From Mytilisepta virgata (taxonomy: Eukaryota > Mollusca > Bivalvia > Mytilida > Mytilidae): a DNA stretch of 64,000 bases. Below the pieces are notes generated by a model. It searched no databases and was not told the origin of the DNA. It saw only the letters and a list, made by a program, of their open reading frames with translations. A program made the translations under genes and the position numbers. Shown in pieces: positions 2 to 41,597 of the stretch. The stretch covers positions 36,038,150-36,102,149 of the forward strand of contig CM051514.1 in NCBI GenBank assembly GCA_028015205.1. Reading direction: 5' to 3'. The first letter of the stretch is position 1. Each line of letters starts with the position of its first letter.

Positions 2-247
2 GAAAAATCATATGAAAACTGGCCACGGCAACTTATACAAAAACCAGAATTTCTTGCACGTAATGGTTTCTTTTATACTAATATTGGTGACCAAGTTACC
101 TGTTTTTATTGTGACATTACTCTTAAACAGTGGACATTGAATGATGACATTGAAACGGAACACATCAAGTGGGAACCAAACTGCTTATTCGCTAAAATGG
201 TGTCCAGCAAGCAACTAAGCTCTGTGTTAACACAAACATATAAGTGA
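2..247 (+). CDS. BIR-domain (IAP-like) protein, C-terminal part, cut by window edge
   Basis: The open frame runs from the window edge to a TGA at 245-247, leaving about 81 residues. It carries a BIR-type zinc-binding pattern: a WP near the start, GFFYTN, then C-x2-C, and about 20 residues later the H-x6-C pair (EHIKWEPNC). BIR domains bind caspases or IAP antagonists, and viral IAPs delay host cell death. The next gene starts 56 bp downstream on the same strand and belongs to a Maverick/Polinton element, so I read this as element cargo, acquired from a host or from another virus. The start and any further BIR or RING domain lie to the left. The stop follows the BIR closely, so there is no C-terminal RING in this reading. 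BIR assignment is strong; the anti-apoptotic role is inferred. Confidence 0.8.
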   Translation, partial: EKSYENWPRQLIQKPEFLARNGFFYTNIGDQVTCFYCDITLKQWTLNDDIETEHIKWEPNCLFAKMVSSKQLSSVLTQTYK

Positions 248-1151: not shown

Positions 1152-1305
1152 TGCAAACTATCAATTATACCTTTTTTGTACATTGTAATTTGATAGTAAT
1201 TTTTGTTCATCATTTCAAAGTCTTTTCTACCACCATATCATACTCAAACTTCTACTTAAACAATTTCCTAACACCTTATATTTTATTTGTTATGTGTTTG
1301 TGAAA

Positions 1306-2421
1306 ATGAAAACACACGATCAAATCAGAGATTTATTACAAAAAACATACAACAAAGCCTACGTTGGTCCCGAAAAATTATATCGTTTGTTAAAATCTAA
1401 AGGGATTTCACATATTGGTAGATCCAAAATAAAAAACTTTTTAAACAGTCAGGACAGTTATACATTAAGACGAGAACTGAGAAAGTCTTTCAAACGAACT
1501 CGTGTTGTGGTATCCAGTATAGATGATCAGTGGGATGTAGATCTGGCTGATGTTAGCAACATATCCAATGAAAACGATGGTGTCAAATATTTGTTGGTAG
1601 TGGTTGACATATTTTCCAGGTTTCTCTGGGTTAAACCACTGAAAAATAAAACAGCAAAAGATGTTACGAATGCTGTAAAGGCCGTCATAAAAGAAGGCAG
1701 AAAGCCCGGAAAGATCCGCACTGATAAAGGAAAGGAATTCAATAACAACATGTTGAAAACCTTTTTAAAAACACAAAACATTTACTATTTCACCACTCAA
1801 AACTCTGAGACAAAGGCAAACTATGCTGAGAGGGCGATAAAAACTCTAAAAAATATTATTTTTAAGTATTTTACTCAAAATAGAAGTCACAGATTTGTAG
1901 ATGTTCTCCAAGATCTCGTCAATACATATAATTCAACTCCTCACAGGAGTTTGAATAACATTGCCCCTAAAAATGTCGATAAAACAAATGAAGCAGATTT
2001 ATGGGGTTTTATGTATTTGAAACCAAAGAAAATCACATCAAAAAGAGTAAATCGTTATCATTTCAAAATTGGAGATTTTGTCAGAATTTCTCACTTAAAT
2101 ATGATATTTGACCGGTCCTACGATGAACATTTCACTAGAGAAGTGTTTAAAATCAGACAGAGATTTAGGATGCAAGCGATTCCAATGTACCAGCTGCAGG
2201 ATTTTCTTGATGAACCCATCAAAGGAAACTTTTACGAGTCTGAGTTGCAAAAGGTTGACAAAGACCAGAACACGTTATGGTTTATTGAAAAGAAAATTCG
2301 TAAACGAAAAAGAAATGGACGAATTCAATGGCTGGTTAAATTTGAAGGTTGGCCTAACAAATATAATCAGTGGATTGATGATGATGCTATCAGAGAAGAA
2401 AACGATTCTCAGCAGAAATGA
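1306..2421 (+). CDS. Maverick/Polinton integrase (retroviral-type DDE) with C-terminal chromodomain
   Basis: This is a DDE recombinase that would insert the linear element DNA into host chromosomes. I start it at the first ATG (1306); the open frame extends 12 bp further upstream only through GTG codons. The catalytic triad is visible: D79 in WDVDLADVS, D140 in IRTDKGKEF and E175 in NYAERAIKTL, so the last two are separated by 34 residues, as in retroviral integrases. The C-terminal 40 residues (about 323-363) form a chromodomain (WLVKFEGWP then QWIDDDAI). Such domains in retroelement integrases bind methylated histone tails and steer insertion. The stop codon overlaps the next start as ATGA, so the two genes may be translated from one mRNA. 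No frame damage is seen, so it may be functional. Confidence 0.93.
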   Translation: MKTHDQIRDLLQKTYNKAYVGPEKLYRLLKSKGISHIGRSKIKNFLNSQDSYTLRRELRKSFKRTRVVVSSIDDQWDVDLADVSNISNENDGVKYLLVVVDIFSRFLWVKPLKNKTAKDVTNAVKAVIKEGRKPGKIRTDKGKEFNNNMLKTFLKTQNIYYFTTQNSETKANYAERAIKTLKNIIFKYFTQNRSHRFVDVLQDLVNTYNSTPHRSLNNIAPKNVDKTNEADLWGFMYLKPKKITSKRVNRYHFKIGDFVRISHLNMIFDRSYDEHFTREVFKIRQRFRMQAIPMYQLQDFLDEPIKGNFYESELQKVDKDQNTLWFIEKKIRKRKRNGRIQWLVKFEGWPNKYNQWIDDDAIREENDSQQK

Positions 2422-2839: not shown

Positions 2840-3343
2840 ATGAATAAAATGTATATTCCTAATACTAGTCAATGGATGCTTTACTATGAAAATTTGGGAA
2901 AAAATGGACATAACCCACACATTACACAACGAATGAAGAGTGGGAAACAAGTTGGTGGGGGTTCACTGACGGGCAGTCCGCATTCATTTATTACACCCAT
3001 TGGCGCTCCATCGAAAGCTCCGACTGAAGAAGAAAAGGTGAAAGTGCAATTGGTTTCTCCGGTTCAACAAACCAATGAAATGGCGCGTGATATGGTAGAA
3101 CGAAATCGGTTACAAAAAGGAATAAAACGAAAAGCCATTACCACCTCATTTAGTTCGATGCACAAACCTCGACGAGTGAAGTCGAAAAAGGCTAAAAAGA
3201 CAGTAAAATCAAAACCGAAAAGAAAAACACTTTCTATCATAAAAAAGCAGAAAAAAATAAAGACGGTTCAGCAAAAAAGAAAAGCAAAAAGTAAAGCCAA
3301 AACTAAAAGGTCTATCAACAATTTTAAGGATATTTTTGACTAA
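2840..3343 (+). CDS. Basic core / DNA-condensing protein (pX/pVII-like) of the element
   Basis: This gene encodes 167 residues. The first third is neutral and rich in Gly/Ser/Pro, and the last ~75 residues are extremely rich in Lys and Arg, ending in NNFKDIFD. The composition fits a DNA-condensing virion core protein comparable to adenovirus pX or pVII. A GGG stretch (KQVGGGSLTGS, residues about 37-47) is a candidate processing site for the adenain-like protease encoded further down, though it lacks the Met/Ile/Leu that the adenovirus consensus prefers. The gene starts 2 bp after the penton stop and ends 2 bp before the capsid start, so the three are tightly linked. The role is inferred from composition and position. 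Confidence 0.65.
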   Translation: MNKMYIPNTSQWMLYYENLGKNGHNPHITQRMKSGKQVGGGSLTGSPHSFITPIGAPSKAPTEEEKVKVQLVSPVQQTNEMARDMVERNRLQKGIKRKAITTSFSSMHKPRRVKSKKAKKTVKSKPKRKTLSIIKKQKKIKTVQQKRKAKSKAKTKRSINNFKDIFD

Positions 3344-3345
3344 AG

Positions 3346-4668
3346 ATGGCAGCTCTCACTGTAGAAGGATTCCAAGAAGCACAACCTAGTGGATTAGATC
3401 TTTTTACATTACCACCTACTCAAACAGCTGTAGAAAATGTTTATTATGAGGAAGTTCGATCAACGTCACAATTAAGTGGCATGTCTCCGATAGAATTCAC
3501 GGTAGCAGCGCAGAATTCGTTGGAATATATTGATCTTAGGAAGACTCAATTGTGGGTGAGAGCTAGAATTAAGCACGCAGATGGTAGTAGTCTTAAATCA
3601 ATTGAGTACGTGGGACCGGTTAACAATTTCCTTCATTCTATGTTTTCACAGGTTGATCTAACTTTACAAAATAAACTTATCACCTCTACTACCACACACT
3701 ATCCTTATAAAGCAATGATTCAGACAATACTGTCGTTCGGTTCGGAAGCAAAAGAATCACAGCTTACCAGCCAACTATGGAAAAAGGATAAGGCCGGACA
3801 TTTTGATGACAATGACGTACAAAATGGAAGTAACAGTTCACTGTATGAACGTTCACAATACTTCGCACAAAGTCAAGTTTGTGATATGATTGGACCTCTT
3901 TTTCATGATCTAACTAACCTCGATCGCTACTTATTGAACCAAGTTGCCGTCAACATTAAGATGTATAGATCAAGACCAGAGTTCTCTTTGATGACTAAAG
4001 AATCAAATCCAAACTTTCAAGTCATCATAGAAGACATTGCCTTGAAAGTGTGTAAAATTCAACTGAATCCAGCAGTCATCACAGCACATGCTCAGAAACT
4101 ACAAACTACCAATGCAAAATACCCATACACGAGAACAGAGGTTAGACTGATATCTATTCCGGCAGGAAGTCTTAGTTTCAATTATAACAATTTATTCAAT
4201 GGATTAAGAGCCACTCGCTGTGTAATTGGATTTGTAGATTCTGCTAGTTGCAGTGGTTCCTACGCCTTAAACCCATTCAATTTTCAACATTTTAATTTAA
4301 GTCAGATTGCACTGAAGTTGAACCAGGTTCCAGTTGGTGGAAGTGTTATGCAATTAAATTACAGTCCTCCAGGTCGTACCATATTGCCTGCATACACTTC
4401 AATGTTTGAAGTGACCAATAAATGGATGCGTGATGATGGTAATCAACTTAGTCGCGATGAAGTGGCAGGTGGATACAGTCTATATTGTTTTAATATTGAA
4501 CCAAATTTCAGTGATGAGGGAAACTATTTAAACTTAGTAAAACAAGGAACTTGTTCATTAGAAGCCACATTCGGTAAACCTCTTCCGAAGGCAACCACAT
4601 GTGTCGTTTATGCTGAGTTTCCAGCTTACTTTGAAATCAATTTAGAAAGGAACATTATGCTAGAATGA
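3346..4668 (+). CDS. Major capsid protein (double jelly-roll, Maverick/Polinton type)
   Basis: This gene encodes 440 residues, the usual size for Polinton-type double jelly-roll capsid proteins. Recognisable elements are PIEFTVAAQNSLEYIDL near residue 50, a strand-rich first half, and the sequence FNYNNLFNGLRATRCVIGF in the middle of the protein. Pseudo-hexameric trimers of this family build icosahedral shells like those of adenovirus and virophages. It lies between the core-protein gene and the protease gene; its stop overlaps the protease start as ATGA. The full length is open without damage, which suggests the element could still form particles, or integrated recently. Family assignment rests on motif memory and gene order, not on a search. 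Confidence 0.85.
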   Translation: MAALTVEGFQEAQPSGLDLFTLPPTQTAVENVYYEEVRSTSQLSGMSPIEFTVAAQNSLEYIDLRKTQLWVRARIKHADGSSLKSIEYVGPVNNFLHSMFSQVDLTLQNKLITSTTTHYPYKAMIQTILSFGSEAKESQLTSQLWKKDKAGHFDDNDVQNGSNSSLYERSQYFAQSQVCDMIGPLFHDLTNLDRYLLNQVAVNIKMYRSRPEFSLMTKESNPNFQVIIEDIALKVCKIQLNPAVITAHAQKLQTTNAKYPYTRTEVRLISIPAGSLSFNYNNLFNGLRATRCVIGFVDSASCSGSYALNPFNFQHFNLSQIALKLNQVPVGGSVMQLNYSPPGRTILPAYTSMFEVTNKWMRDDGNQLSRDEVAGGYSLYCFNIEPNFSDEGNYLNLVKQGTCSLEATFGKPLPKATTCVVYAEFPAYFEINLERNIMLE

Positions 4669-5180
4669 ATACTTACCAGTTGCAATGTGCTGTAGACTCG
4701 GATAATATGATGAAGTCATCGATACTCGGTGTGTTTGCCGCCGATGAAATCATCAGTGTTAGACTTCTTCCCGGGACTGGTTTTATCTCAAATACGGACG
4801 TGAAACAGCTACCTGGAAAACATTGGATTGCATTTTTCTATAATGAAAAAAGAACACTCGAAATATTTGACTCTTATGGTAGTACAAAGGACCAATTGTC
4901 GTTTTACTTTAAGAAATTTATGATTAAATATACAAATATTCTAACGAACAGGAAACGGCTGCAAGGTGATGATACAGTCGTGTGTGGTCAATATTGTCTA
5001 TTCTATTTAATGTGTCGCGTGAGAGGATACACCATGCAGCAGATTTCAGATTCATTTTCTGAGGACTACCAATTAAATGATCAATTTGTATATGATTTTA
5101 CAGATAATCGTTTTCATTGTTGTGTGGCAAATACTTGTAATGAATTAAGTCAATCTTGTAATAATATTAAATGTCAATAA
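4665..5180 (+). CDS. Adenain-like (C5/Ulp1-type) cysteine protease, capsid maturation
   Basis: This gene encodes 171 residues with the adenain/Ulp1 catalytic layout: H53 in KHWIAFFYN, D69 in EIFDSYGS, Q100 in RLQGDD as oxyanion-hole residue, and nucleophile C107 in VVCGQYCLFYL. The adenovirus enzyme cleaves core and capsid precursors during particle maturation, and likely targets here are the neighbouring core and capsid proteins. The start codon overlaps the capsid stop by 4 bp. The C-terminal 40 residues are Cys-rich (FHCCVANTCNELSQSC). The AATAAA signal at 5176 overlaps the stop codon, so the late mRNA would end almost at the end of this frame. Confidence 0.9.
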   Translation: MNTYQLQCAVDSDNMMKSSILGVFAADEIISVRLLPGTGFISNTDVKQLPGKHWIAFFYNEKRTLEIFDSYGSTKDQLSFYFKKFMIKYTNILTNRKRLQGDDTVVCGQYCLFYLMCRVRGYTMQQISDSFSEDYQLNDQFVYDFTDNRFHCCVANTCNELSQSCNNIKCQ

Positions 5181-5181: not shown

Positions 5182-5223
5182 GAGTAATAACTTTAGTTTT
5201 GTTGTATTGATAACTTTCTGGAA

Positions 5224-5230
5224 TATAAAT
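5224..5230 (+). promoter_or_regulatory. TATA-like box upstream of the ATPase gene
   Basis: TATAAAT lies 30 bp before the ATPase ATG and 43 bp after the preceding poly(A) signal, as expected if a new transcript starts here. Confidence 0.45.
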
Positions 5231-5253
5231 GTTTTGGTTTCTCCTTTAAATAC

Positions 5254-5970
5254 ATGTTAAATACTAATTGTATTTCATTTCATGAGATAATACCGAACAG
5301 TATGGATGAATGGTGGAAGAGAGAAAGTTTAATCAAGTTTAAAAGTCCGACTTCGATTTTTGTTGTGGGTCCATCCAACTCTGGAAAAACAGTTTATACA
5401 AAACAATTATTAGTAAACGCGAATGAGATGTTTGAAATATCACCCTCTAAAATATATTATTGCTATAGCATTTGGCAACCAATATACGATGACATGAAAG
5501 TCTCTGTGAAGAATATTGAGTTCTATAAAGGTTTTCCCAATATGGAAATGTTGTCTGAATGGGGAGCTTTACAAGGACATCAAATAATTATTTTAGACGA
5601 TCTTTTATTGGAGGCTTCAGATAGTAAAGAATTAATTTATTTGTTGACAGTTGGAATTCACCATTCTTCCCTTTCATTGATCTTTATTTTCCAGTCCCTG
5701 TATTTTAAGGGTAAAGCCATGAGAACAGCCTCACTGAATTGTCATTACTTTATTTTATTTCGAAATTATCGAGATCAATTACAGATACAAACTTTGGGAA
5801 AACAAATTTTTCCAGGACAAACTAAGTTTTTTATGGATGCTTACCAGAAGGCCACCTCTGTCAAGTTTCGCCCGTTCATCATTGACTTAAATCCACATAC
5901 AGACAAAACATATCAGTTGTCAACAAACCGTGGAGTTGGACAGATGCCTATTATTTTCGAGCCTATATAA
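5254..5970 (+). CDS. Genome-packaging ATPase (FtsK/HerA-type, A32-like)
   Basis: This gene encodes 238 residues. Walker A is GPSNSGKT at residues 39-46, and Walker B is HQIIILDDLL with D115/D116. Following segments (LTVGIHHSSLSLIFIFQSLY) match the sensor region of viral A32-like packaging ATPases, which pump DNA into double jelly-roll capsids. The gene has its own TATA-like box and follows the poly(A) signal of the capsid block, so it probably belongs to a second transcription unit. Its TAA stop shares a base with the ATG of the next gene (TAATG), a classic stop-start overlap. Confidence 0.9.
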   Translation: MLNTNCISFHEIIPNSMDEWWKRESLIKFKSPTSIFVVGPSNSGKTVYTKQLLVNANEMFEISPSKIYYCYSIWQPIYDDMKVSVKNIEFYKGFPNMEMLSEWGALQGHQIIILDDLLLEASDSKELIYLLTVGIHHSSLSLIFIFQSLYFKGKAMRTASLNCHYFILFRNYRDQLQIQTLGKQIFPGQTKFFMDAYQKATSVKFRPFIIDLNPHTDKTYQLSTNRGVGQMPIIFEPI

Positions 5971-6710: not shown

Positions 6711-6750
6711 TGTTTGTTCATAAATAGATCAGATTGAAATTAACAAAGCT

Positions 6751-9700
6751 ATGGCTCAGGCGTATATACATCATGTAATAAAAAGGGATAAGCGTTTGGA
6801 GAAGCAAATAAATGATTTAAGAAATACCACATCGGCGTTTAATGATTCCGATAATGAACTGTTGGTGCAAGCAGCAGATAAAATCGAGGAAAAAATCAAA
6901 CGAAAGCAAAAATTGAACAATTTTGAAAAACTATGTAAAAACCCCAGAATGGACACTCATTTTATGTGTGATCTATGTGACAAAGTGTACAGACATAAGA
7001 GGACCTTAATTCGCCACATCAAAACACATTTTACTAAGTTCAAATGTACTATGTGTAATAAATCCTTCACTCGTCAGACAAACTTGAAAAAGCACAAAAC
7101 AAAATGCAATACATTGTATAAACCCTCGGCTGTATTGAGATGTGGAAATGCAACAAATATGTGTGCAAAAGAAGGGGGCTATAATTGTAGACATTGCAGT
7201 ATACCTTTTCAAAGTTATGAGGATTTGTTTCAACACGTCACCGCAAATCATCCCCTCAATCAAACAGGAGGCAATATTAATCAAAAGTCATCACCAGCTG
7301 TTCCACCGCAAAATATACCATCGCCTGCAGAAGAAAATGGGTTAAAAGCAAAATCAGTCACAGTTAGGAATCGGATAAGAAGAAATGCATTAAACGGTGC
7401 TGTTCAACAAGTGGATATTGTTCCAGAAGGAAATGAAAAATATGACTTGTTACAATTTCTAGCCAATGTTAAGGAGGATGTAGATATCGAAATTGATTTT
7501 CAAAAGAAACAAAGACGAAGTGTTAAATGGTATGTTAATGCTAGGGTTGAAATGGTTCGAGATCTAGAAGGGGAAGGAAATCAAGAAAAAGCTCATCCAC
7601 ACTTTCGAAGTAAAAATTATATATCATTACAGCATGATTTTAATGAACATAATATTAATGAAGCATTTCAAGCAGTGAACAAAGCAATGGAGGAATTCAT
7701 TAACAAAGGTTCTAACTGGATTTTGAATAAAATTATTTGTTTAGAGGTTCATACAGTAGTATACTCACCCATAAAAGGATCTAGTTACATGGAACTTCCA
7801 AGAAAGCTTCGACATACTCGTGGAGTGGTTAACATCAAGAATGATGATCAACGTTGCTTTATGTGGTGCGTTTTAGCAGCTTTACATCCGACAACACAGC
7901 ATTCAGAACGAGTTTCACATTACATGAATTATGAAAATGAACTCAACATGAAAGGAATAGACTATCCCGTGTCACTCGACAACATTGGGAAGTTTGAGAA
8001 ACAAAACAAAATCTCTATAAACGTTTTTGGATATGAAGATGGGGAAGTATTTCCACTACATTTAACAAAACTGGAAAATGGATATAATGAAGTTGATCTA
8101 CTATTTTTAACAGAGGGAGACAATACGCACTACTGTTGGATAAAAAATATAGATCATTTCTTTGGTTCTGTAAGGAAAACTAGTACGAAACGCTTTTATT
8201 GTCGCCGTTGTTTACATGGATTTATCAGAAGAGATTTACTGGACCAACACAAACCGTACTGTGATAAATTTGACTTTCAAAAAGTGGAATATCCACAAGA
8301 AGGTAAGAACTTTTTACAATTTGATGAGTACGAGAAGCAAATGCCAGTTCCATTTGTTATATATGCCGACTTTGAAGCTTTTGCAAGAAAGATGGATACT
8401 TGTTTTCCGAATGCAGACAAACCGTCAACAACACATCACACGAAATTTGAAGCTTGTGGTTATTCGTACATTGTTGTGTGCACCAATGATAAGTATACAA
8501 AGCCTCCAGTTGTGTATCGTGGCGAAAATGCAGTTGAACACTTTTTTGAAAACATCATGAAGGAGGAAAAATATATTCAAGACAGGTTGATGAACCCTGA
8601 ACCTTTAATTATGAGTGAACAATCAGAACAGGCTTTCAGGAGCGCAACACATTGCTATGTTTGTAATAGACAATTTACTGAAAATCTCATTAAAGTGAGA
8701 GATCACGATCATCTCGGTGTTAACGCGGATGTAGACTCACCGATCTACACAAATTATCGTGGGCCCGCTTGCCAGCGTTGCAACCTTAGTCTTAAGGCTA
8801 ATCATGTTCCGTGCTATTTTCACAATTTACGTGGATTTGATGCCCATTTACTTATGGGTGCTGCAGGAAAATACAAAGACAAGAATATAAGTGTTATTGC
8901 TAACAACTCCGAGCGATATATTTCATTTTCCATCGGAAAACTACGATTCCTAGACAGCTTTCAATGTATGCCGAGTTCATTGGAAACATTAGTTGCAAAT
9001 TTAGCAAAAGATGGACTTCATAATTTCACCCAATTTCACAAAACCTTTCCGTCAGACGAAGCTGCAAATTTACTACTACAAAAAAACGAATACTGTTACG
9101 ACTATGTAGATTGTGAGGAACGATTTGACGAAACGGAACTTCCCCCTAAAGAAGCCTTCTTCAATAAACTTAACTCTGAACCCATTTCTGATGAAAAATA
9201 TGCACATGCACTGAAAGTATGGGATTTCTTTAAAATGAAAACTTTAGGAGAATTCCACGATTTGTATGTCTTAACAGATTGTCTATTACTGTGTGATGTT
9301 TTTCAAAAATTTCGAGAAATGACTTTGAAAAGTTACAAACTTGATGCATCTCACTTCTACACAAGTCCAGGTTTGGCTTGGAGGGCCGCGTTAAAGATGA
9401 GTGGGGTCTGCTTGGAGTTAATTACAGACCCTATCATGTACAACATGGTTGAAATTGGAACCAGGGGAGGTGTTAGTATGGTGTGTAAAAAGTACAGCAG
9501 AGCAAACCATGAACTTTTGGATGACTATGACGCGTCAAAACCTTCAAAGCATATCATGTATTTGGATATGAACAACCTTTATGGATTTAGCATGTCACAA
9601 AACCTACCACATGGGGGTTTACGCTTTCTTACGGAAGATGAAATTAAACATTTTGATGTGCGAAAGGTGCCAGAGAATGCAAAGGAAGGTTTCATCCTTG

Positions 9701-11733
9701 AAGTGGATTTGGAATTGCCTCCTCATCTTCATGATTACTGCAACTGCTATCCTCTTGCGCCGTCACATAAATTTATAGAAAGCGAATATCTGTCCCCCCA
9801 TAGTCAATGTTTATGGGAGAAGTTGTATGGAAAAGCGAATTCAAGGGTAAAAACTAAGAAACTCATACCAACATTAGGAGAAAAAAAGAACTATATTCTT
9901 CACTATCAGAATTTACAGTTATACCTCGATTTAGGAATGAAAATAACCAAGGTTCATAGGATTCTAGCTTTCCAACAATCTCCCTGGCTGAAGTCTTACA
10001 TCAACTTTAATGCCGAAATGAGGAAAAACGCTAGGAACGAATTCGAAAAAGATTTCTTCAAACTCATGTGTAACAGGTAAATGTTATTATATTATGTTTC
10101 AGTTTTCAGAATTCTGGATTTCTCAGTTCAGTGCATGTTTTTCACTTCTAAATATATATATAGCTATCGCTCTCCTTGTTCGGTAATTTTGTTATTACCC
10201 TTATATTTATTAAAATGTAAAACAACAAATCAGAAAGATATAATGTTGAGTAATATTTTTGGGGGTATTTTTTGGAACATTAAAATACAGATTTTAGAAT
10301 TGAAAAAAAAAGAATGTGTCAAATCATACATGTAATTTGACTTTTATATGCAACGGTGGTAAATGACATGTCCTGCCACCTGAAAGGTATGTTTTCGTAA
10401 CTATAAATGATATTTAATCTTATATTTCAGTGTTTTCGGGAAATTTTTAGAAAACTTGAGGGACAGAATATGCTTCCATTTAGTCCATTCAGAAAAGATG
10501 TTGAGGAAATATGTAGCCAAACCATCTTTTGATCGGGTTATTATATTCAATGAAGACCTTGTTGGAGTGCACAACAAAAAAGTGAATCTCGTTTTGAACA
10601 AACCAATCTATGTGGGACAAACTATATTAGATCTTTCAAAGAAAATGATGTACGATTTCCACTACAACGTTATGAAACCCATGTATGGTGACAACATTCA
10701 ATTACTGTTTACTGATACAGGTAATCATTCAAATCATATTGATGATAAATCATAGTTTTAAAGATTTATATAAAACATAAATGTGCTTAAGACAAAGTTT
10801 TTCTGTTCAGATTAATTAATTTCTTTCTTTTTTGAAAAAAAAAAAACATTTTTCTTTAATTCATTCTGTTTTTAAATAATTTGTCTCCTCAACCAACTAA
10901 ACTACATACTGGTAATATATTTAACAATTTAAAAAAAAATAATTTCAAAATGAAAAGAAAAGATCTTTTGTCAATTCAGATTCCCTCTGCTATGAAATCA
11001 AAACCAAAGATGTGTACAAAGATATGGAAAGCATTAGAGGAAAATTAGATACATCGAATTATCCTAAAGACCACGCATTATATAATAATACCTACAAGAA
11101 AGTTCCGGGGAAAATGAAAGATGAACTTGGAGGTATTTATATATATATATATAAAATGTTAGAATGGAATTGGGGAAAAAAGTGAAATGATTAATTAAGA
11201 GTATTGTTATTTATTCTTTTTCTAAATTGATGCAACTTTTCATTATAATTTCATTTTTTCTATAATCTTCAACTTACAAATAAAAAATAATAAATGCATA
11301 CAATAAAAATCCAGTTTCAATAATTTCGTACTGATTAATTTTTTCTCTCTTTTTTAAACTTTTAGGTATGCCCATTCAAGAATTTGTAGGTTTGAGGCCA
11401 AAAATGTACAGTCTGATGTACAACGTCAAACGATTAGATGAAAATGGAAAAAGTTCGTCTTGTCAACAAGAGAAGAAAACAGCGAAAGGAGTTGTGAAAA
11501 GTGTCATTCAAAAAGACTTACGTCATGAACACTTTAAACAATGTTTATTTAATGAAGTCGCCACAATGCATTCAATGAACGTTATTCGCAGTGAAAATCA
11601 TAATCTTTTCATGGACACTATCGTTAAGAAATCGTTATCAGGATTTGACGACAAACGCTACTGGCTTGACAATGTGAATTCACTTAGTTTTTCACACCAC
11701 AGAATCAATGCTATTACAAATGAGTCTGCTTAA
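6751..11733 (+). CDS. polB: Protein-primed family B DNA polymerase with zinc fingers, four exons
   Basis: Exons are 6751-10076, 10431-10720, 10980-11132 and 11366-11733, about 1,378 residues. The N-terminal part has C2H2 zinc fingers (73-93, 99-119, 146-167), and another Cys/His finger lies near 490. The exonuclease motifs are Exo I (DFE, D540), Exo II (HNLRGFD, D697) and Exo III (YVLTD, D843). A Cys/His DHDH module, HNH-like, sits around 645-675. Polymerase motif A is YLDMNNLYG with D939. Motifs B and C span the exon 1/2 and exon 2/3 joins, and the K-x-Y motif (KMYSL) is in exon 4. All introns have GT..AG ends, with phases 2, 1 and 1. The enzyme would copy the element's linear DNA from a protein primer. 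It is far from degraded: every motif is kept. Splicing inferred from frame and conservation needs cDNA proof. Confidence 0.92.
10077..10430 (+). other. Intron 1 of the polymerase gene, inside motif B
   Basis: This 354-bp intron has donor CAG|GTAAAT and acceptor TATATTTCAG. It is AT-rich and has in-frame stops. It splits a serine codon (phase 2) in the N-S-x-F/Y-G element of polymerase motif B. Confidence 0.85.
10721..10979 (+). other. Intron 2 of the polymerase gene, inside the catalytic DTD motif C
   Basis: This 259-bp intron has donor ACAG|GTAATC and acceptor GTCAATTCAG. It splits, in phase 1, the codon of the second aspartate of motif C, which binds a catalytic metal. Confidence 0.85.
11133..11365 (+). 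other. Intron 3 of the polymerase gene
   Basis: This 233-bp intron has donor GGAG|GTATTT, followed by a short (AT)n run, and an acceptor after a strong pyrimidine tract (CTCTCTTTTTTAAACTTTTAG). Phase 1. Confidence 0.85.
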
Positions 11734-11845: not shown

Positions 11846-12851
11846 TTACTGTCCTTCATTGTCTTGTATGTTTGGATTCATATATAGATCTGCCAGAACC
11901 TCTGCTGAGAAATGTGCCTCTGTAGCTTGCCATTGATTCCTGTCTTGATGAACACTTTGGGCTGATACAGGCTGTGAGGGTCCTTGGGGGACTGGTACAG
12001 GGGTGGAAACAGGCTGTGAGGGTCCTTGGGGTGAATCATACACTGGTTGTAAAGCCGTTAAAGCCATTCTTCGAGTGGGAGTTGGAGTTCTTGGGTGCTA
12101 TGAAAATAAAAACATATGGATATGGAAGTTTAAGCCAATCGTGTAATAAAGTAGATATTTGTTATTGTTATGCAATTATGATCCCAATTGAGACAAAAAT
12201 TTAGAACAATAATTGAAATGATTTATGCCAATACACAATTTTGAAAGCTACAAATAGAACACGGGGAAATAAACTAAAGCATAAATCAATCACCATAGAT
12301 CAGTCAAGAAAAATATGAAACAATGTAATACCATATTTAGTGTGCCATATGCGCATTTTCTCATTCTCATTAATGCTCAAATCCTAAAGGTTGGAAAGTC
12401 GAAAGTAAATAAAATGTTGCAGAACAGAATAAATACGAAAGTGAATGGCTAAAACATGAATCCATAACAAGCTAAGGACAGAGCACGAGGGAGTACTCCT
12501 TGGTTCTATCAATTTACAAAATTTTGCAGTGGAAATTGTATAAGTTTGTATAAATAAGATACTTACTTGTTGGAACCTGCCTTTCAGCTGCTCTAGGCTT
12601 AAAAACAGCTGGATCAGTGAATCTATTTCATCTAACCCCAGTGAAATTCTCCCGGTCTTCCCTGGTCGGTTGTCATAAATGTCTGAGTAGAAAAAACCCT
12701 CAAACATTCTGAAAGTTAGGGTCTTGTTTCTTCCAAATTTAGTTCTAAACTCAAGCTGTCCATTCTTATCACGGCACTCGTGAAACGTTATTCCACTTGA
12801 CGGACTGTTCTGCATTCTACACAATTCATAATATAGTTGAGCTTGTGCCAT
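11846..12851 (-). CDS. PC4/Sub1-like ssDNA-binding domain protein with Pro-rich tail, two exons (perhaps three)
   Basis: Exons are 12851-12567 and 12097-11846. The donor is CAA|GTAAGT, the acceptor is TTTTATTTTCATAG, the phase is 0, and the product has 178 residues. Residues about 35-90 (GRNKTLTFRMFEGFFYSDIY, then RPGKTGRISLGLDEIDSL) match the PC4/Sub1 fold pattern: strands with basic/aromatic residues, then G-x-ISL-x-x-x-E and a helix. PC4 binds single-stranded DNA and assists RNA polymerase II transcription. The second exon is Pro/Gln-rich, with PQGPSQPVS twice. The ATG at 12851 sits in ACCATGG, a strong start. A strong acceptor 31 bp upstream keeps the frame open and allows an upstream exon at 16495-16152 (see that entry), giving 303 residues. 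The fold assignment is by eye. Confidence 0.6.
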
Positions 12852-12882
12852 GGTTGTACCTGAACTGATTTTTGTAAAAATT
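12852..12882 (-). other. Possible in-frame extension of the PC4-like exon to an upstream acceptor
   Basis: On the - strand, a pyrimidine-rich tract ending CTGCTCTCAG (AG at 12884-12883) precedes ten open codons that run in frame into the ATG at 12851. The phase matches the donor at 16152/16151. Confidence 0.4.
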
Positions 12883-13739
12883 CTGAGAGCAGAAGAAATT
12901 TGTGAAAAGAAGTTAAAAATTATTTTATTTTATAGTAGTCTCCTACTAAGGCTGTCACACCCATTTTGTGGGTGCGTACGCAACTTTATATTGTTCTATA
13001 TTTTTAATGGTATTTACATGGCAACTCGCGCAAGTCAAAGTAGTTTCCGAAAATTTTCCTTTTTTTTTTTAATTGGACAAGGACCCAATTGCTTTCTTGT
13101 CCACTCATGTAGAAATAAGGGTGGATCGTTATTCTTTCACTTCACGCCTACATTTATCTTTTGGTTGCCCCCCCCCCCCTTTCTTTTTTAAATTTTCAGA
13201 ATCTGCCTCTGGGAATCCAACAAGAGCTTAAGGGGTTTCCGTTATATTTAATCATGAGCATTTGTTATTGTCATTTAACTTCCAAAATAAGCCGATAAAC
13301 TTCATAAAAACATGATATATACACTTAAAATAATATTTTTTTTAGAAATATGACAGTAATTTTACTTAAAATACAATATTACACCTGCAGGCGTATTTAT
13401 GTAGGACCGGCTGTACCATCCCGCATCCCGAAAGTTTTTACAAAATTTAGTATTCCCGGTCCCAATTTGAACTTAATAAAATAATATGAAAAAAAAATCG
13501 ATCAAGAGTTGTCTTTCTTTGTGCACAACGTCTTATATTCTCTTTGCCGATAAATAAGTTATTTTTAATTTTTATTTTATTTTATGCGATGGAAAATTAG
13601 ATAAATTACATAAAGTGCCTTATTAGATAATTTTTAAACAAAAATAAATTCCTTTACAAAGTATAACTTGACGCGAACTCTAGTCTCTGCGCATGATCTG
13701 TGACAAAATCAGTTTCATAAGCATTTTCAACTGTTCAAG

Positions 13740-15022
13740 ATGGCGAACGTAATCATGGTAATTCTGGTTGTGCTTTTTTTGTTTTTGTCACAAGCTGCAG
13801 CAAATGTATTTGATACAAAGACATGTAGACCAGTGGAGGATCCTGTGACATACGTGTTGTATAAATTACAGTGTAAATATGGAGGACCCGGACTTTACAG
13901 CTTTACTGGCCCCGAGACTGTCAAGACGTTGGAGGTCGATCGGTTGACAGAAGAATCACACTTGGTGATCACAAGTAGTACTTTGCAGTCTGTTACAATT
14001 AAAAAGGGGACGTGCTCCCTCGTGTCAGCCCCCCTCAAAGTCAAGGTTACAGTAGATGGAAAATTATGTGTAAGTCTTGATTTTTTTCAAATTAAAATAT
14101 TATGTAATCAACTAATAATCAATGTTTACGTTCTTTTGGTCAACGAGGCGTGCTCGAGGACAAAGTAATGTTTCATTATCCACTGTCAAAAATTGTGATC
14201 TAAAAAAGTGTTAAGCAAAATAAGTTATAAATAATAACCAGAATGAAACTTTTAGTGTCCAATTGAGTTCTACTTGCTAACCACTACAAGGACAATATGT
14301 AGCATGAAATAAAAATAAAACAAACAGGTTTCTACATTTTACTTTGTTGTCCAATATTAATAGAGAGCATCTTAAAATGGAAGTAAAATGCATATCAAAA
14401 TAATTGGAATGAAAATCAGTTTAAAAATTGACAGTTTTCTCATAAAAATTATTTTGTTGATAATTCCCCATTTAAACACATGCTTGATCAAGATTTTGTT
14501 AATTTTTAAAAGTCAAAGTTTTGTTATTTTCTGTAGAACCCTCAGTTAAGCCTGTTCACTAGAGATGGAGTTGCACAAAGTGCAGCTGTCACCACATCCA
14601 TGACATCAGAAACAACAGACAGTGGAACCATCCCGACCGACACCACTATGGATTTTGACTCCCTATCCCACCCTCAGGAGCAATCAAGTCAACATCAGAA
14701 GCTTCCGGACCAGTTCCAGTCTCAACCTGGTGTGACAATGGAGGTTTCGACCTCGGGACCTGATCAGTTACCAGTATGTTTCCTCCATATAAGTTTGTGA
14801 CCTTATCCATCATCTCGCTGTACAATGTACATCTATATAATAAAATAATATTGCCTTTCTTACACCAGATCAAGAAAATAGGTTGATTTAGAGTAAAATG
14901 GAAATTAGGAAAGTTATTAGAGAAAACTTATCCAAATATGAAATATTTCTTTTTTCATGATTCACAAAATTTGAGTATATCTTTACATAGAATTACTAAC
15001 ATACAACAAACGTAAAGTGTGT

Positions 15023-15061
<39 letters not shown>

Positions 15062-15194
15062 GTTTCAATAGATTATAAAATGTTTATTATAATAACGAAA
15101 TTATTATAATTTTAATATAAAATATATTTATAGGATGATGACACTACAGACATGACAGAGGCATGGATGATATCTACAATAGCCACTGCTATAG
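13740..15194 (+). CDS. Single-pass membrane protein, common exons 1-3 (secreted-side domain, stalk, half of TM helix)
   Basis: Exons are 13740-14069, 14537-14773 and 15134-15194, with canonical donors (GTAAGT, GTATGT, GTAATT) and acceptors (TTTTCTGTAG, ATATTTATAG), phases 0, 0 and 1. Exon 1 encodes a signal peptide (residues 1-21) and a ~90-residue domain with four cysteines (29, 45, 92, 110) and LRR-like strand spacing (LEVDRL, HLVITSSTLQSVTIKKGTC). Exon 2 encodes a Ser/Thr/Gln/Pro-rich stalk of 79 residues. Exon 3 encodes an acidic DDDTTDMTE stretch and then WMISTIATAI, the outer half of a transmembrane helix. The helix is completed by one of four alternative terminal exons that follow. I do not recognise the extracellular domain. 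A receptor or adhesion role is inferred from topology only. Confidence 0.75.
15023..15057 (+). repeat. Poly(T) tract in intron 2 of the membrane protein gene
   Basis: A ~35-base run of T lies just before exon 3. It is a homopolymer in the intron, not the acceptor tract itself. Confidence 0.9.
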
Positions 15195-15257
15195 GTAATT
15201 CATTTTATTTCAAAAGTTCTTACATTTGGATATCTGTACTCACTATAATTTTTATAG

Positions 15258-15373
15258 TATTGTTGGTGACGGTTATAGTATTGTATAAAATAAGACAAAG
15301 CAGTGTAGATTCTAATACATGTTATTATAAACCACTGAATTCCATTGAAATGAAAGAAATTGAACTTGCATGA
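15258..15373 (+). CDS. Alternative terminal exon A: TM half plus YKPL tail
   Basis: The acceptor is AATTTTTATAG. Joined to exon 3 in phase 1 it encodes VLLVTVIVLYKIRQ, completing the helix, then a 25-residue tail with a YYKPL endocytosis-type motif. The product has 247 residues. The 63-bp intron is a multiple of three and open, so retaining it is also possible and gives a longer protein with the same tail (helix ISVLTIIFIVLLVTVIVLY). A poly(A) signal AATAAA at 15406-15411 follows and precedes exon B, which supports a terminal exon. Confidence 0.6.
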
Positions 15374-15405
15374 CTTAATGACAACATTTAAATAATGGGA
15401 AAGTT

Positions 15406-15411
15406 AATAAA
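15406..15411 (+). terminator. Poly(A) signal behind alternative exon A
   Basis: AATAAA lies 32 bp after the exon A stop and before the acceptor of exon B. Confidence 0.5.
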
Positions 15412-15445
15412 TGAAGTAAAAAATATTTCAATTTTTTCATTGTAG

Positions 15446-15549
15446 TTATTGTTGGGATTTGTTGTTGGTTCTGGATTTGGAAATGCCGAGTTCGGGCTGT
15501 TAGAACAAATCAATTACCAATGTACAACCTCCAAAGAAAAAATAATTAG
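15446..15549 (+). CDS. Alternative terminal exon B: Cys/Trp-rich TM half plus short basic tail
   Basis: The acceptor is strong (AATTTTTTCATTGTAG). In the shared phase 1 it encodes VIVGICCWFWIWKCRVRAV, completing the helix, then a short basic tail ending PMYNLQRKNN and a TAG. The total is 243 residues. The tail has a Y-N-L-Q element and juxtamembrane cysteines that could be palmitoylated. No AATAAA was seen before exon C. Confidence 0.6.
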
Positions 15550-15616
15550 TTCAGACAAGAGTTGATGGGTTGTTAACTTAATATTCTGAATTTTGAAACA
15601 TTCTGTTATTTTACAG

Positions 15617-15765
15617 TTTTGCTTGGTTTTATATTTGTAATTGTCATCTACATCAAGAAAAGAAGATGCAGAAATAATTATGACAATAACAGTGACAGTG
15701 ATGTAGAGATATTCAGTATATCAACATACAAATTTATGGAAAAATTTGACAGCACTTCATTATAA
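15617..15765 (+). CDS. Alternative terminal exon C: TM half plus acidic tail with PDZ-type end
   Basis: The acceptor is TTCTGTTATTTTACAG. In the same phase 1 it encodes VLLGFIFVIVIYIKKRRC, completing the helix with a basic stop-transfer. The tail has an acidic SDSDVE patch (casein kinase 2-like), a YKFM sorting-type motif and the C-terminal end DSTSL, which fits a class I PDZ ligand. The total is 258 residues. Confidence 0.6.
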
Positions 15766-15789
15766 TTTTTTTTTATTATTTTTTTTTAG

Positions 15790-16031
15790 AACAACTTAGG
15801 GTCATTTTGGTAACCATTTCCGGAATCGTTATAATGTTAGTACAAATTAAAAGAATACTTAGAGGACAACCCATCAACAATTTTCAGCTACCTCATCCGG
15901 CCCAACCAGAACCTCAACCTCATCCCATACCTGTGCAACCTACACCTGAACTACCTCAACCAGCACCTGAGCCAGTACCAGTTCGACGCAGTAATAGGCG
16001 GAGAACACCTGTAAATCGTCTCAATTTGTAA
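15790..16031 (+). CDS. Alternative terminal exon D: TM half plus proline-rich tail
   Basis: The acceptor follows a long T tract (TTTATTATTTTTTTTTAG). In phase 1 it encodes EQLRVILVTISGIVIMLVQI, a hydrophobic helix, then a long tail with repeated P-x-P/P-x-x-P units (QPEPQPHPIPVQPTPELPQP), which could bind SH3 or WW domains. The end is basic (RRSNRRRTPVNRLNL). The total is 289 residues. Confidence 0.6.
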
Positions 16032-16151
16032 ATGGGGGTGGGGGTAAAGTTTTATTTTAAAATTTGTTTTCTTTACATGTAAATATAGTTATTATCTGAG
16101 AAATATTTTAAACAGTGGGGTTAGTAAATGGAAAGTGAATAAGAAATTTAC

Positions 16152-16495
16152 CTTATTTGCATTATTTTGCAACAAACGTTGTACATATCTTTAGAATAGG
16201 TGGAATCCATTTCCTGACATAGGAATATCATCCTTTTCAAAAAATTTGCTGACTTGTCCTTCAAGTAAGTTATCAAATCTTCATTTCTGAGATGTTGATG
16301 TATTGCATAGTGGTATGCAGCATTTACATCCTGCTCCAAGTCATTAAATCTCAAGTTAATATCCAAAAGATGTCCCACCTCTAACATTTCGGTCTTAATT
16401 TGTCCGTCTAGTTCACAATCGGGGCACGGGAAACTGTTAGAATTGATTTTTCTTGCTTTCAGATACAGTTGCTGAATATTTCCTCTGAAGTTCAT
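16152..16495 (-). CDS. Putative first exon of the - strand PC4-like gene, or separate small gene
   Basis: This exon encodes 114 full codons from the ATG at 16495: a basic start, one C-x-x-C (FPCPDCELDGQ), then helical charged segments. The frame ends four bases past a consensus donor (AAG|GTAAAT at 16152/16151, phase 2). The nearest strong acceptor downstream on this strand, at 12883, resumes the same phase and leads straight into the PC4-like exon. If so, the + strand membrane protein gene lies inside a 3.3-kb intron. Unspliced, the frame simply stops at 16148, giving a 115-residue protein. No family recognised. Confidence 0.5.
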
Positions 16496-16499
16496 TGTG

Positions 16500-17466
16500 A
16501 TTTAATAAAACTTTTTAATCTGTAGTGTTAAACAGAAGTTTTAAACTTTATGTATATAATGTGATGTAATTGGGGAGGTAACTATTTGAGATTATGAGAA
16601 AATTAATACATGTCAAATGTATCATTTCAGTGTTTGATTGGTCTTCCCCCATTTTCTGCAAATGCAAGTTTATTTATTTACAATTAACAGTAGAAAATGT
16701 AATACCCAGTCACTCTCCCTAAATTTGAACAAATTTGAATTTTATATCAGATTTTAATTCTGTTTACTCCTTATGTGTCAGATGGTGAGAAAACAAACAT
16801 AAAACCAACCAAATGAAATCAGCTCTTTTTTCATTGGTAATCTGTTTTCTCTAATTAATATTTAATAACAATTTAATTAGCTTTATCCTTGAAAGGGGAT
16901 GTAAACATTAACATTTCCTGTGTATTGTATGGATGATTATGATGCCATTCTTCTTCAAAGTGTTAATATTTAACCTTATGATTATAATCATTCTAATATG
17001 ACACATTGTGATTTTTATCAAACCTATTGTTGACAAAATACTGAAATAATTAAGTATTTATTTCCTGTGTATTGTTGCACTTTGAATTCTACTATGATGG
17101 TTCAATGATTCATGTTAATTGAAGTCTAAAATTCATTTTTCATACTTCTTATCTTGTTCAATGTTTATTCCTGAATATATTTTTCATGTAATAGCTTTAA
17201 CCATTCAGATTCTATGGTGCTTATGAAATTTTTTTTTCCTATGGTTTCTTCTGTAATGCTCTGTTCTGAAAGAGTTTTTTGTCAATAAAAAACATATATA
17301 AATAAGTTTACATAAATCTTTCTAGGGTAAAGGTTTTGAATGCATATTTTTTTATTTGATAGATGTAGATATTTTTATTGTATATGTGTTACCTTTTATA
17401 GTTTTTAGCATATTGTATTTCTTGGTGCTGCTTTGTGATAATGTCATATTCATTGATCTTTCAACT
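16500..17466. other. AT-rich intergenic stretch, no gene seen
   Basis: AT-rich, no long open frame. Several short T runs and AATAAA-like hexamers. Nothing else supported. Confidence 0.6.
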
Positions 17467-18186
17467 CTCAATATTGACTCAGGGTCTTTTTCAACATTCC
17501 GTTAACAAAAGTGCCAATTTGTTACTGTCTTTTGTTATTTGCCATAATTGTTTTACATGACTTTCAAGAAGTGTAGTTGTCAAATGTTAAATAGATGAAT
17601 GTTTATACTTTGACAATTTAAAGAATTTTGTTTTCTGCTGCTATATAGAAGTAATAACACATTTACTATATTAATGTATTGACTCAGGATATTTTTCAGC
17701 ATTTTATTAACAAAAATGTCAGTTATTTTTTATGCAATGTTTTATATGTGCAGTGCCAAGAAAAATGGTTGTAAATGTTATATAGTTTTTTGTTTGATGT
17801 AAATAAATGTTTTTTTTTTAAACTTTGAATATTGACTCAGGGTCTTTTTCAACATTCCATTAACAAAAGTGCCAATTTGTTACTGTCTTTTGTTATTTGC
17901 CATAATTGTTTTACATGACTTTCAAGAAGTATAGTTGTCAAATGTTAAATAGATGAATGTTTATACTTTGACAATTTAAAGAATTTTGTTTTCTGGTGCT
18001 ATATAGAAGTAATAACACATTTACTATATTAATGTATTGACTCAGGATATTTTTCAGCATTTTATTAACAAAAGTGCCAATTATTTGTTATGCAATAATG
18101 TTTTATATGTGCAGTCCCAAGAAAAATGGTTGTTAATGTTATATACATTTTTTTTTTGATGTAAATAAATGTTTTTGTTAAAAAAA
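17467..18186 (+). repeat. 358-bp tandem direct duplication with internal half-unit repeat
   Basis: The segment starting TTGACTCAGGGTCTTTTTCA at 17474 recurs at 17832 with only scattered changes over the full ~358 bp, ending AAATAAATGTTTTT each time. Inside each copy a related GACTCAGGATATTTTTCAGC block starts about 206 bp in, so the unit itself arose from an older duplication. No coding frame. Confidence 0.85.
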
Positions 18187-19917
18187 ATCTGTTTTACACT
18201 TTATTTTCCCTTTGAAGTTCAGTTTGAGTTATTGGGTGTCTATCTGTCCATCTGTTGGAAGGTGTGAACATTTTGGCATACAGCCTAAATACTCTCATAC
18301 ATATGTAAAGTCAGTTGTTTCTAGCCATCCTACTCCTTTAATAACATGCATTACCATTTACTCTTGAAATCCATTTAAAGTAAACAGATCACTTAAACCA
18401 TAAACAGAAGTTTGTTTGCTCATCAAATGTTTACATACAACACTACAAATTTGAACGCTCACCCAGGATTAAAATGAAAAAAATATTAATATTGGGAAAA
18501 TGCCATGAATGCATCAGTAATATTGTCAAAAGATGGTGAAAAAAAAACAAAGGCTAGAATTAAACATTTCATTAAAGACCTGACTACAAAAGTAGGTCAC
18601 TAAGAGGATTATCTTCAAATTTAAATTCTCAACTTCAATTGTGTGGTCATTAAATATTTACATATACCACTTCAAATATTAATTCATGTGACGTCACTCT
18701 ACATTGTCCCTCAAATACGTTTCGGACTGCGCCACCCTTCCCCTTTTCAAGATTGCGCCACCTGCACCAGGCGCCACTTGTCCTCATATCATCATTATCA
18801 CACTACTGATATCTATTGAAAATATGTGCTGTTTTGCATATGTGATAAGTTAAAAAGTTTGAGGCTGGTATCTTTTCCGGCGGAGATAAGGCTTATCTGT
18901 CCAGCGTCAACGGCAAATGACATCAAAATATTTGATTTACAGATTATGACATGGCTGCATCCCATATCTTCCCGGATATATTCTCCCGAACAATATTTGC
19001 CTTTGGCTGGCGCCTCGGGAAGATATCCGGCAGATATGGAAATAAGCACGAAATAATATATATTATGTGACTACTCCTCATCACGGAAGGTACCAGAGGA
19101 CTAAACCACTAGCTATACAGTACCTTTTCCCTCTGAATTTTAATATAAATGTAAAAAATAACAATAAAAAGTAAAAATAAAATAAATAATAATACTAAAT
19201 ATGTTAGTCTAATAAAATAAAGCTTTATTTAAAATATGCTTTCTAGAAAATTTTGCATGTAAAAAGAATTGGGTTACAATTAGCTTGACAAGACATTTCT
19301 TTTAGAGTATGTTGTGCAATTCTGACGTAAATTTTGAGCGCATTCAGTCTCGTACCAGATTTCGTGCATATTCAGGGGAAGTTTGTATTTCTTTTTGCCG
19401 CTTCCTAGAACACTATTTTCACTGTTTGTACTTGGGAATACTTGTCAATGAAATTAAACATTCAGTTCTATTTGTTAATATCAAGGATTGAAATTATATT
19501 TACAGGACCAAAATATTTTTTAGTCAAATAAAATCTTAATGAAATAATCACACTTTATCCTTGAAATGTCAATTTCACTTTCATTCTAATTATGTTTTTT
19601 TTTAGATGTCAATGTCCTGTTTCATGAAAGCTGATTCAATGCGAAGTTGTATACGGTGTAATTAATTATATAATCTGATGATGGCACACCCAGCTTTTTG
19701 AAATTCAACACGACTCTCTGAATGTATTAGTATATAGGTAAGCTGTATTTGAATCCTCAAGCCCACCAATTAACCTGTTACTGGGGTGCATTTAACTTCC
19801 TAAAGATAAGATTTATCAAAAAAAAAAAAAAAAAAGAAATCACACCTATACGTATTCTTTCTTATACATGTAACCACAAACTGCATTTACATGTACGAAT
19901 TCCATTTCCATTATCAC
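18187..19917. other. Intergenic, one imperfect inverted repeat, no gene seen
   Basis: No convincing gene. Between about 18965 and 19035 an ATATCTTCCCGGATAT block faces a CGGGAAGATATCCGG block, a weak foldback. Short frames on both strands there are shadows of that symmetry. (A/T)-rich runs at 19140-19200. Confidence 0.5.
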
Positions 19918-30468: not shown

Positions 30469-31310
30469 TTTAATCTGCAAAAATTCAAAATTATCAAATC
30501 TACAAACATTTTAGAGATACAACCCTCTTTACAGCGACCATGTTGGTTTCAGCTCAACACTGTCGTTAAAATGAGTTTGCTGTTAAAATGAAACCGCCCA
30601 TTTTCAAATTTTCTTCTACAGCAAACTCATTTCAGACCGTGCCTGTGTCTTATTTATTATGATGACCATTCTTTTTGTATAAGCTTTGTTTTTTTGTTCG
30701 TGTGTATTATAGAGTAATACAATAAATGCATACTTTCCTAAAGAAATTATTTCATTTTAAAGATGCATGTTGTATTTTAACAACTATTCTTGGTTATATT
30801 ATTTAGACATTTTCAAGAGCGTAAGATACAACTCCCTGTATTCTCAGAGTAAATTGACTCTGACGTAAATCGATCTGTCGTGATTTAAAAATTGTTTCGG
30901 ATTTTTGATTTGAGATCACACTCCAAATACATGTATATGTAAAACTGGAAAATAATTAAATGTTGCGAACAACATGTTTTACTAATTTGAAAATAATTTT
31001 CATAAAGAGAACCTTGTCTAACAACAAAACAATAAAGGTCAACAATGACTTACAGGTATCAAAATCACAACCAATTAACGCCATCCGACCATGGAATAAT
31101 AACAATATGTAACTCCAAAAATTATTTTCATTATCTTGAGTTTGTCGTTTTTTCTCATGCAAAGGGAAAGTTGACGCTAAAATGAGGTTTAATTATTGTC
31201 CATACCCATGCACTTAATTAATATCATAATAACCAGGAGACTGTTGTTAAAACTATATTTTTTAAAAGAAAATAATGGTTGTTAACTAAAGATTTTCTTA
31301 ACATAAAATA
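30469..31310. other. Intergenic/5' flank of the membrane protein gene
   Basis: It holds the acceptor for the - strand gene (tract just upstream of 30477 on that strand). A short inverted pair AATGAGTTTGCTG / CAGCAAACTCATT occurs at about 30571-30632. No first exon could be fixed. Confidence 0.4.
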
Positions 31311-40947: not shown

Positions 40948-40999
40948 AACGCCATAGCTGTCTTCCGTTGTTCATATTTAGTATACGCTGTGATCATTT

Positions 41000-41520: not shown

Positions 41521-41597
41521 GTGGTAAACTTCCGAAAATAACCGAAAACATACGAAGCCGGACATTTTTTTCGGGTTTATTTTCATACTGTCATAAC

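Follow-up and report, generated by a model that had tools for sequence, protein, structure and literature searches.

Introduction

In immunoglobulin M (IgM), the secreted and membrane forms arise from a composite terminal exon: its donor may be spliced to a later exon, or it may be left unused so that the transcript ends at a poly(A) site close by. Here, we describe a gene of the bivalve Mytilisepta virgata, contained in a 64,000-nucleotide stretch of genomic DNA (hereafter, the window) and carried by a Polinton/Maverick provirus, in which one predicted ectodomain appears to be followed by four alternative 3' ends. Compared with IgM, both outcomes would be membrane-bound here, with three further competing acceptors.

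Host receptors are known in which one ectodomain takes alternative tails, and the closest case considered here, with two variants, is Dscam. In Penaeus monodon, Dscam has alternative membrane exons 32.1 and 32.2 together with alternative stop-bearing exons 44.1 and 44.2 (PMC6851185). Like arthropod Dscam, the locus studied here is a single putative cell-surface gene with alternative membrane and stop-bearing exons. However, Dscam has two variants of each, on separate exons, in a long host protein with immunoglobulin (Ig) and fibronectin type III domains, whereas our locus has four ends within 0.8 kb, each comprising a membrane piece and a whole tail, lies in a mobile element and gives no Ig match. 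In Tetrahymena, DNA joining within a terminal membrane exon completes the mating-type-specific genes MTA and MTB (PMC3608545). In both systems, variable and shared parts meet at a terminal membrane exon, but in our gene the ectodomain is the shared part, the tails are the variable one and the choice would be made by RNA processing.

Polintons of animals are known to carry genes for membrane-acting proteins, as the passage on nematode Mavericks with a putative fusogen and cargo genes indicates (PMC10680173); our gene gives no match to a known fusogen, and that passage is silent on alternative tails. Adintoviruses encode an rve integrase with a C-terminal chromodomain, and many of them carry anti-apoptotic genes (PMC11071296). 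The present element resembles them in its rve integrase, which may also have a C-terminal chromodomain (a match below the Pfam cutoff), and in its BIR-domain gene; membership by those authors' hexon and DNA polymerase B (PolB) criteria would be a separate matter. The same authors suggest that virion proteins may have hidden isoforms whose C-terminal domains differ through non-standard translation, e.g., frameshifting (PMC11071296). Those proposals concern virion proteins and translation; here, the subject is a membrane gene with a terminal exon array. Two other candidate precedents were dropped: Crumbs isoforms have one common tail, and the introns treated in passages of PMC12220804 are group I introns. 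Among open-access titles and the beginnings of abstracts, a range that leaves subscription journals mostly outside, we found no virus or transposon described as having a conserved module of four tails.

Results

One ectodomain followed by four tails

The gene comprises three common exons and four downstream frames (Table 1). Exon 3 ends in the middle of a membrane helix (...WMISTIATAI plus G), and the introns between the exons listed are all of the GT-AG type. Each of the four downstream frames starts after an AG, resumes phase 1 and runs to its own stop, which is the last position given for it in Table 1. The exon coordinates and phases had been proposed in an initial annotation of the window and were confirmed by direct reading. 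That annotation had also described all four tails as beginning with the second half of the helix. This holds for b and c, while d starts with the charged residues EQLR and has its own membrane segment, as do the d tails of relatives.

The predicted structure of exon 1 is beta-rich, with a predicted local distance difference test score (pLDDT) of 61, and gave no match at E 0.001 in viral or Protein Data Bank (PDB) libraries. Several of the weak PDB rows are leucine-rich-repeat chains, and kinship with these is unsupported. None of the eight exon-1 proteins in the family alignment matched an Ig family at E 0.1. Tandem duplication was considered as the origin of the tails and rejected: among a–d, DNA z scores reach at most 1.42 and full-exon protein z scores at most 2.38, and the types are distinct across families.

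Table 1. Features of the element and of the four-tailed gene (positions in the window unless a contig is named).
Feature	Position	Strand	Remarks
Polinton/Maverick provirus	contig C7:36037436 to window 18807	+	19,521 bp; left 714 bases outside the window
Right terminal inverted repeat	18550..18807		match continues to 18815
BIR (inhibitor of apoptosis) domain gene	2..244	+	cut by window edge; Pfam 2.1e-21
rve integrase, C-terminal chromodomain-like end	1189..2418	+	Pfam rve 6.1e-11, above cutoff
Candidate adenovirus-type protease	4635..5177	+	Peptidase_C5 6.2e-4, 19.9 bits against cutoff 21.3
A32-like packaging ATPase	5197..5967	+	Pox_A32 2.6e-5, above cutoff
Probable PolB, first exon	6724..10077	+	named by eye
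Neighbouring element open reading frame	12387..12929	-	homologues of the 12567-12857 part in families K, N, P, Q
Exon 1	13740..14069	+	predicted signal peptide and ectodomain; donor gtaagt; ends in phase 0
Exon 2	14537..14773	+	Ser/Thr/Pro-rich stalk; phase 0 at both ends
Exon 3	15134..15194	+	acidic piece and first half of membrane helix; ends in phase 1, donor gtaatt
Tail a, probable read-through of exon-3 donor	15194..15373	+	full membrane segment, tail end IEMKEIELA; AATAAA at 15406
Tail a as spliced exon (initial annotation)	15258..15373	+	possible minor route
Tail b, predicted spliced	15446..15549	+	half helix, basic tail, LPMYNLQ
Tail c, predicted spliced	15617..15765	+	half helix, KKRR, acidic SDSDVEIF, C-terminal STSL
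Tail d, predicted spliced	15790..16031	+	starts with E, own membrane segment, proline-rich tail, C-terminal RRSNRRRTPVNRLNL
Neighbouring element open reading frame	16151..16501	-	weak homologues beside four M copies

The gene lies within a Polinton

Polintons are defined by terminal inverted repeats that start with AG and by a 6-bp target duplication. Both features enclose the gene. The window occupies C7:36038150-36102149. The right repeat has an inverted partner at C7:36037428-36037693 (98.1% identity over 266 nucleotides), and the element junctions read GATATC / AGTAGT...ACTACT / GATATC, with GATATC duplicated at the target. On contig C2, a further copy stops at the same element ends and has its own target duplication, AATGCC. 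Given the terminal repeats and the separate target duplications, the gene is located inside a Polinton with two independent insertions. The element had been missed by the initial annotation; the gene is Polinton cargo and not an ordinary host gene. Between the C7 and C2 copies, exon 1 shows no difference, exon 2 differs at 2 of 237 bases and exon 3 at 1 of 61, while tails a, b, c and d differ at 1 of 116, 0 of 104, 3 of 149 and 1 of 242 bases, respectively. All four tail frames are open in both copies, with the same stops.

The array recurs in divergent relatives

A search of the 1.03-Gb source assembly with exon 1 (E 0.001 or better) gave at least 76 matches, and the DNA downstream was read for 37 of them, two more being read on the inner side only. 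At least two tail types were recognised in 17 of the 37 regions. These are L012 and the members of eight families defined by their ectodomains: W (the window and the C2 copy), K (L017, L032), M (L041, L042, L043, L048), N (L024, L034), O (L022), P (L014), Q (L015, L018, L031) and S (L020). The exon-1 proteins of K, N, O, P, Q and S are 35–43% identical to that of the window in an alignment in which O is represented by the near-identical L021; family M stands outside this alignment, and the genome search gave 36–38% identity for its copies.

The half helix (P/A)W[IMV][IV]... and a phase-1 donor close exon 3 in W, K, M, N, O, P and Q; the half helix was not found in S (seven of eight families have it). 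Tails c and d are present in all eight families and b in six (W, K, M, N, O, P). All tested exon starts of b, c and d come after an AG and are in phase 1; the start of d in P, after cag, was read by eye, and that in O was not placed. The order a-b-c-d is constant wherever the types were found, and the distance from the donor to d is 570–654 nucleotides in the five families measured. The tails also share short motifs. In tail b, W has LPMY where K, M, N, O and P have [IL]P[LMF]Q, and c has a dibasic stretch followed in most families by acidic residues and an aromatic one. Tail d starts with E or D and has its own membrane segment and a proline-rich stretch, with RRS[NG]R in W, K, M, N and Q. 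Thus, the layout of one ectodomain with four alternative terminal tails, as first proposed from the window, recurs with the same order, phase and motifs in paralogues of ~35–43% ectodomain identity.

The cytoplasmic parts were compared across families (a from five families, b from six, c from eight and d from four, namely W, K, M and N, with O, P, Q and S omitted), K's b being cut before its run-on into c here and in the codon-position set. Tails of the same type gave a mean z of 4.30 (59 pairs) and tails of different types 0.20 (168 pairs), with labels that were assigned partly by similarity, some tail queries coming from the same loci, and that are therefore not wholly independent. The same-type value was reached in none of 2000 within-family label permutations, and DNA order alone gives the same labels. 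By tail, the same-type mean z was 1.31 for a, 5.86 for b, 3.94 for c and 7.09 for d. Across the four types, differences at codon positions 1, 2 and 3 were 0.46–0.54, 0.28–0.42 and 0.59–0.65, a coding-like pattern, with the caveat that the alignment was protein-guided. The four M copies differ at 5 of 474 coding and 5 of 409 noncoding columns, with 0 and 5 gap columns, respectively, too few for a selection test.

Moreover, other element genes accompany the array. Homologues of the minus-strand frame at 12567-12857 flank the gene in K, N, P and Q (43–57% identity), with PolB farther out in N, and weak homologues of the minus-strand frame at 16151 lie next to the four M copies (24% identity, E 0.001). 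The gene is thus part of a conserved Polinton block in at least the families with those neighbours.

Some copies are decayed (L003/L012, L004/L013 and L031). L003/L012 have lost a and b, the gap running from the end of exon 3 halfway into c. The initial annotation had pointed to orthologous loci with stops or lost acceptors in three of the exons as evidence that would speak against the array; this state was found in the decayed L003/L012, where c and d have stops, but not in several families, whose frames are intact.

A separate group consists of 13 outward-facing exon-1 pairs, 8.5–12.6 kb apart (e.g., C8:20303299/20313192). PolB lies between the arms in both pairs that were read whole (L026, L027), and the outward flanks, where read, showed no recognisable tail array. 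These pairs look as if the gene were placed in the terminal repeats of another Polinton family.

Tail a is most likely reached by read-through

The stretch 15195-15257, between the exon-3 donor and position 15258, consists of 63 bases, is open and is a multiple of three, and a can thus be read from unspliced RNA. In the window, RNA left unspliced at this donor would encode a complete membrane segment followed by tail a. The unspliced frame is open over 51–62 codons in five of seven families (W; K, 51; N, 56; P, 62; Q, 51 in L018). An in-phase acceptor AG precedes a in W, K, Q and P, at a distance that varies. In N, no in-phase acceptor yields tail a, whereas the unspliced frame does. Since the unspliced route is the only one common to the five families, access to a by read-through is favoured.

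The exon-3 donors lack G at position +5 in all seven families (gtaatt, gtacaa, gtaaat, gtaatt, gtaaat, gtaaag and gtacaa). The exon-1 donors have a +5 G in W, K, M, O, P, Q (L015) and S; the exon-1 donor of L018 is of the GC type and also carries a +5 G, and for family N the exon-1 boundary was not placed. An AATAAA hexamer lies 33 bases past the stop of a in the window, and its reading as the poly(A) signal of a is only suggestive, given that such hexamers are common in AT-rich DNA and that their places vary between families. On balance, read-through of a weak donor explains tail a better than the acceptor at 15258 does. The idea of four mutually exclusive spliced terminal exons would accordingly stand for b, c and d, and the layout most likely consists of one read-through end and three competing acceptors.

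Chance and coding potential

Between 15100 and 16100, exactly four frames combine an acceptor, the right phase, a hydrophobic start, basic residues and at least 30 codons, under settings that were picked after the array had been seen. Four such frames were found in 0 of 3000 dinucleotide shuffles and three in 1 of 3000, and elsewhere in the window (both strands, three phases) there are at most two per 850 bases. The excess over chance claimed by the initial annotation is borne out for four in-phase frames of this kind. For a–c alone, none of the 2000 shuffles and none of the 1891 other places matched the strict setting, and a looser one was matched by 1 of 2000 and 3 of 1891, respectively. The loosest was matched by 14 of 2000 and 13 of 1891, which weakens the case against chance. 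Codon statistics back exons 2, 3 and d; by the same statistics, a, b and c are indistinguishable from noncoding DNA. Overall, the strongest support for the array comes from the relatives rather than from the shuffles.

RNA hairpins were also considered as a device for the choice of tail and were dropped, the wider region giving no support. A 13-nucleotide perfect inverted repeat (15561-15573/15866-15878) encloses exon c and the acceptor of d, with an equal score in 1 of 300 shuffles. The array region folds no better than shuffles (z 0.14; z -1.32 for a 361-nucleotide part), and its best duplex was reached by 1 of 200 shuffles but by 6 of 21 other or overlapping window stretches.

Other features of the element and the window

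The integrase (Table 1) has a Chromo match at residues 370-402 (1.2e-3; 19.1 bits against a Pfam cutoff of 25.1). The open reading frame (ORF) at 3340-4665, which gave no Pfam or PDB sequence match, is by its position a candidate for the double jelly-roll major capsid protein. For the ORF at 6724..10077, Pfam gave zinc fingers and a weak endonuclease VII match but no polymerase; a palm motif was read by eye across an intron near 10719/10978. Over 10078-11366, the presumed PolB gene is cut by GT-AG introns, also read by eye, one of which splits the palm motif. The introns of this presumed PolB indicate that spliced genes would be normal in this element.

A BIR-domain gene is also present in the related element at L021 (65% identity). 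A PC4-like reading of 12567-12857 was set aside, having no Pfam support. For the ORF at 16151, the structure model is unusable (pLDDT 46), and no similarity to the ORF at 304-708 was found. IMG/VR scans with exon 1, the 16151 ORF and core genes or a piece of one returned no relatives; as the core genes were also unmatched, this collection may be without such elements. A ~358-nucleotide tandem repeat at 17459-18179 adjoins the right terminal repeat, inside the element.

Elsewhere in the window, the ORFs at 28207-30510 (minus strand) and 37709-40045 (plus strand) have many hydrophobic stretches and appear as relatives, sharing 64% DNA identity over 0.9 kb; the latter matched no Pfam family. An inverted duplication of 1.08 kb, 99% identical, occupies 40943-42026 and 42692-43773. 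Each arm has a SAM-domain-like frame, and the one that was scanned fell below the Pfam cutoff.

Discussion

Based on the position within the element and on the conservation of layout, phase and tail type, we propose, with a probability of roughly 0.84, that a Polinton (adintovirus-like) provirus carries this locus as an accessory gene for a small type I membrane protein with four alternative 3' ends. Exons 1–3 would encode a signal peptide followed by a beta-rich ectodomain, then a mucin-like stalk and the initial half of the membrane helix. When the weak exon-3 donor is not used, translation would continue through a complete membrane segment into tail a, and the transcript might end at the AATAAA at 15406; when it is used, three acceptors would compete to give tail b, c or d. 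A constant ectodomain would thereby be placed at the membrane with one of four tails that differ in their short motifs (proline-rich and RRSNR in d, dibasic then acidic in c, [IL]P[LMF]Q in b). The different tails would most likely send the ectodomain to different compartments or partners. From sequence, we infer transcription, the use of all four ends, the weak-donor switch, the membrane topology and any function. The ectodomain might serve as a decoy, as an entry factor or in some other role.

Several observations weigh against this proposal, besides the partly dependent tail labels and the protein-guided alignment mentioned above. Fewer than two tail types were recognised in 20 of the 37 downstream regions, nine of which belong to the family with outward-facing pairs. 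Tails a and b were not identified in S, nor b in Q, and the same-type similarity of a is weak, with z of at least 3 in only 2 of 10 pairs. The b frame of L017 (family K) has no stop and runs in frame through the acceptor of c into c, and c of L032 is broken by a frameshift. As for read-through, the unspliced frame of family M has 23 codons and gives a membrane segment without a tail, that of family O has 21 codons, is not hydrophobic and has lost tail a, and by codon statistics the 63-nucleotide stretch scores as noncoding, although the adjoining membrane half of a does so too. Finally, the ectodomain has no recognised relative beyond this genome in a narrow search (exon 1 in IMG/VR; PDB; Pfam).

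If a were joined at 15258, the locus would have four mutually exclusive spliced terminal exons, as in the initial annotation. The phase-1 AG before a in four families agrees with this layout, yet the AG lies at variable distance and is lacking in phase in family N, whose unspliced frame gives a; the open unspliced frame common to five families and the donors without +5 G in all seven also argue for read-through, and we regard splicing of all four ends as unlikely. Another reading, compatible with the tail mechanism proposed here, is that of a host receptor family with alternative tails, partly captured by Polintons. Many copies are indeed clustered on contig C6, and the upstream flanks read for M and O (S being outside this set) showed no recognisable element gene, so some copies may be of host origin. 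However, the window and C2 copies lie strictly inside an element with target duplications, the minus-strand neighbour accompanies the gene in K, N, P and Q (in N, PolB lies farther out), weak homologues of the 16151 gene adjoin the M copies, and PolB is enclosed by both inverted pairs read whole; a host family thus appears improbable to a similar degree.

That tail d alone is used, with a–c as decayed or random open frames, would agree with the noncoding-like codon statistics of a–c and with the old L003/L012 copies, which lack a, b and half of c. Against it, b is recognisable in six families and c in eight, with phase and motifs kept and frames mostly intact, and we consider chance or relic frames very improbable.

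Returning to the proposed accessory gene, we lean, by a narrow measure, towards an old accessory module of the Polintons of this animal, with a fixed ectodomain and a fixed order of four tails (a by read-through; b, c and d by splicing) under the control of a conserved weak donor, in which one sensor or decoy would be directed to four intracellular destinations. Here, a compact set of four tails is kept in order, phase and motifs within a virus-like element despite deep divergence of the ectodomain. This suggests that Polintons invest in membrane signalling or trafficking. The families would offer a natural series for how a weak donor and competing acceptors divide one transcript, and the layout predicts features to seek in the membrane genes of other Polintons.

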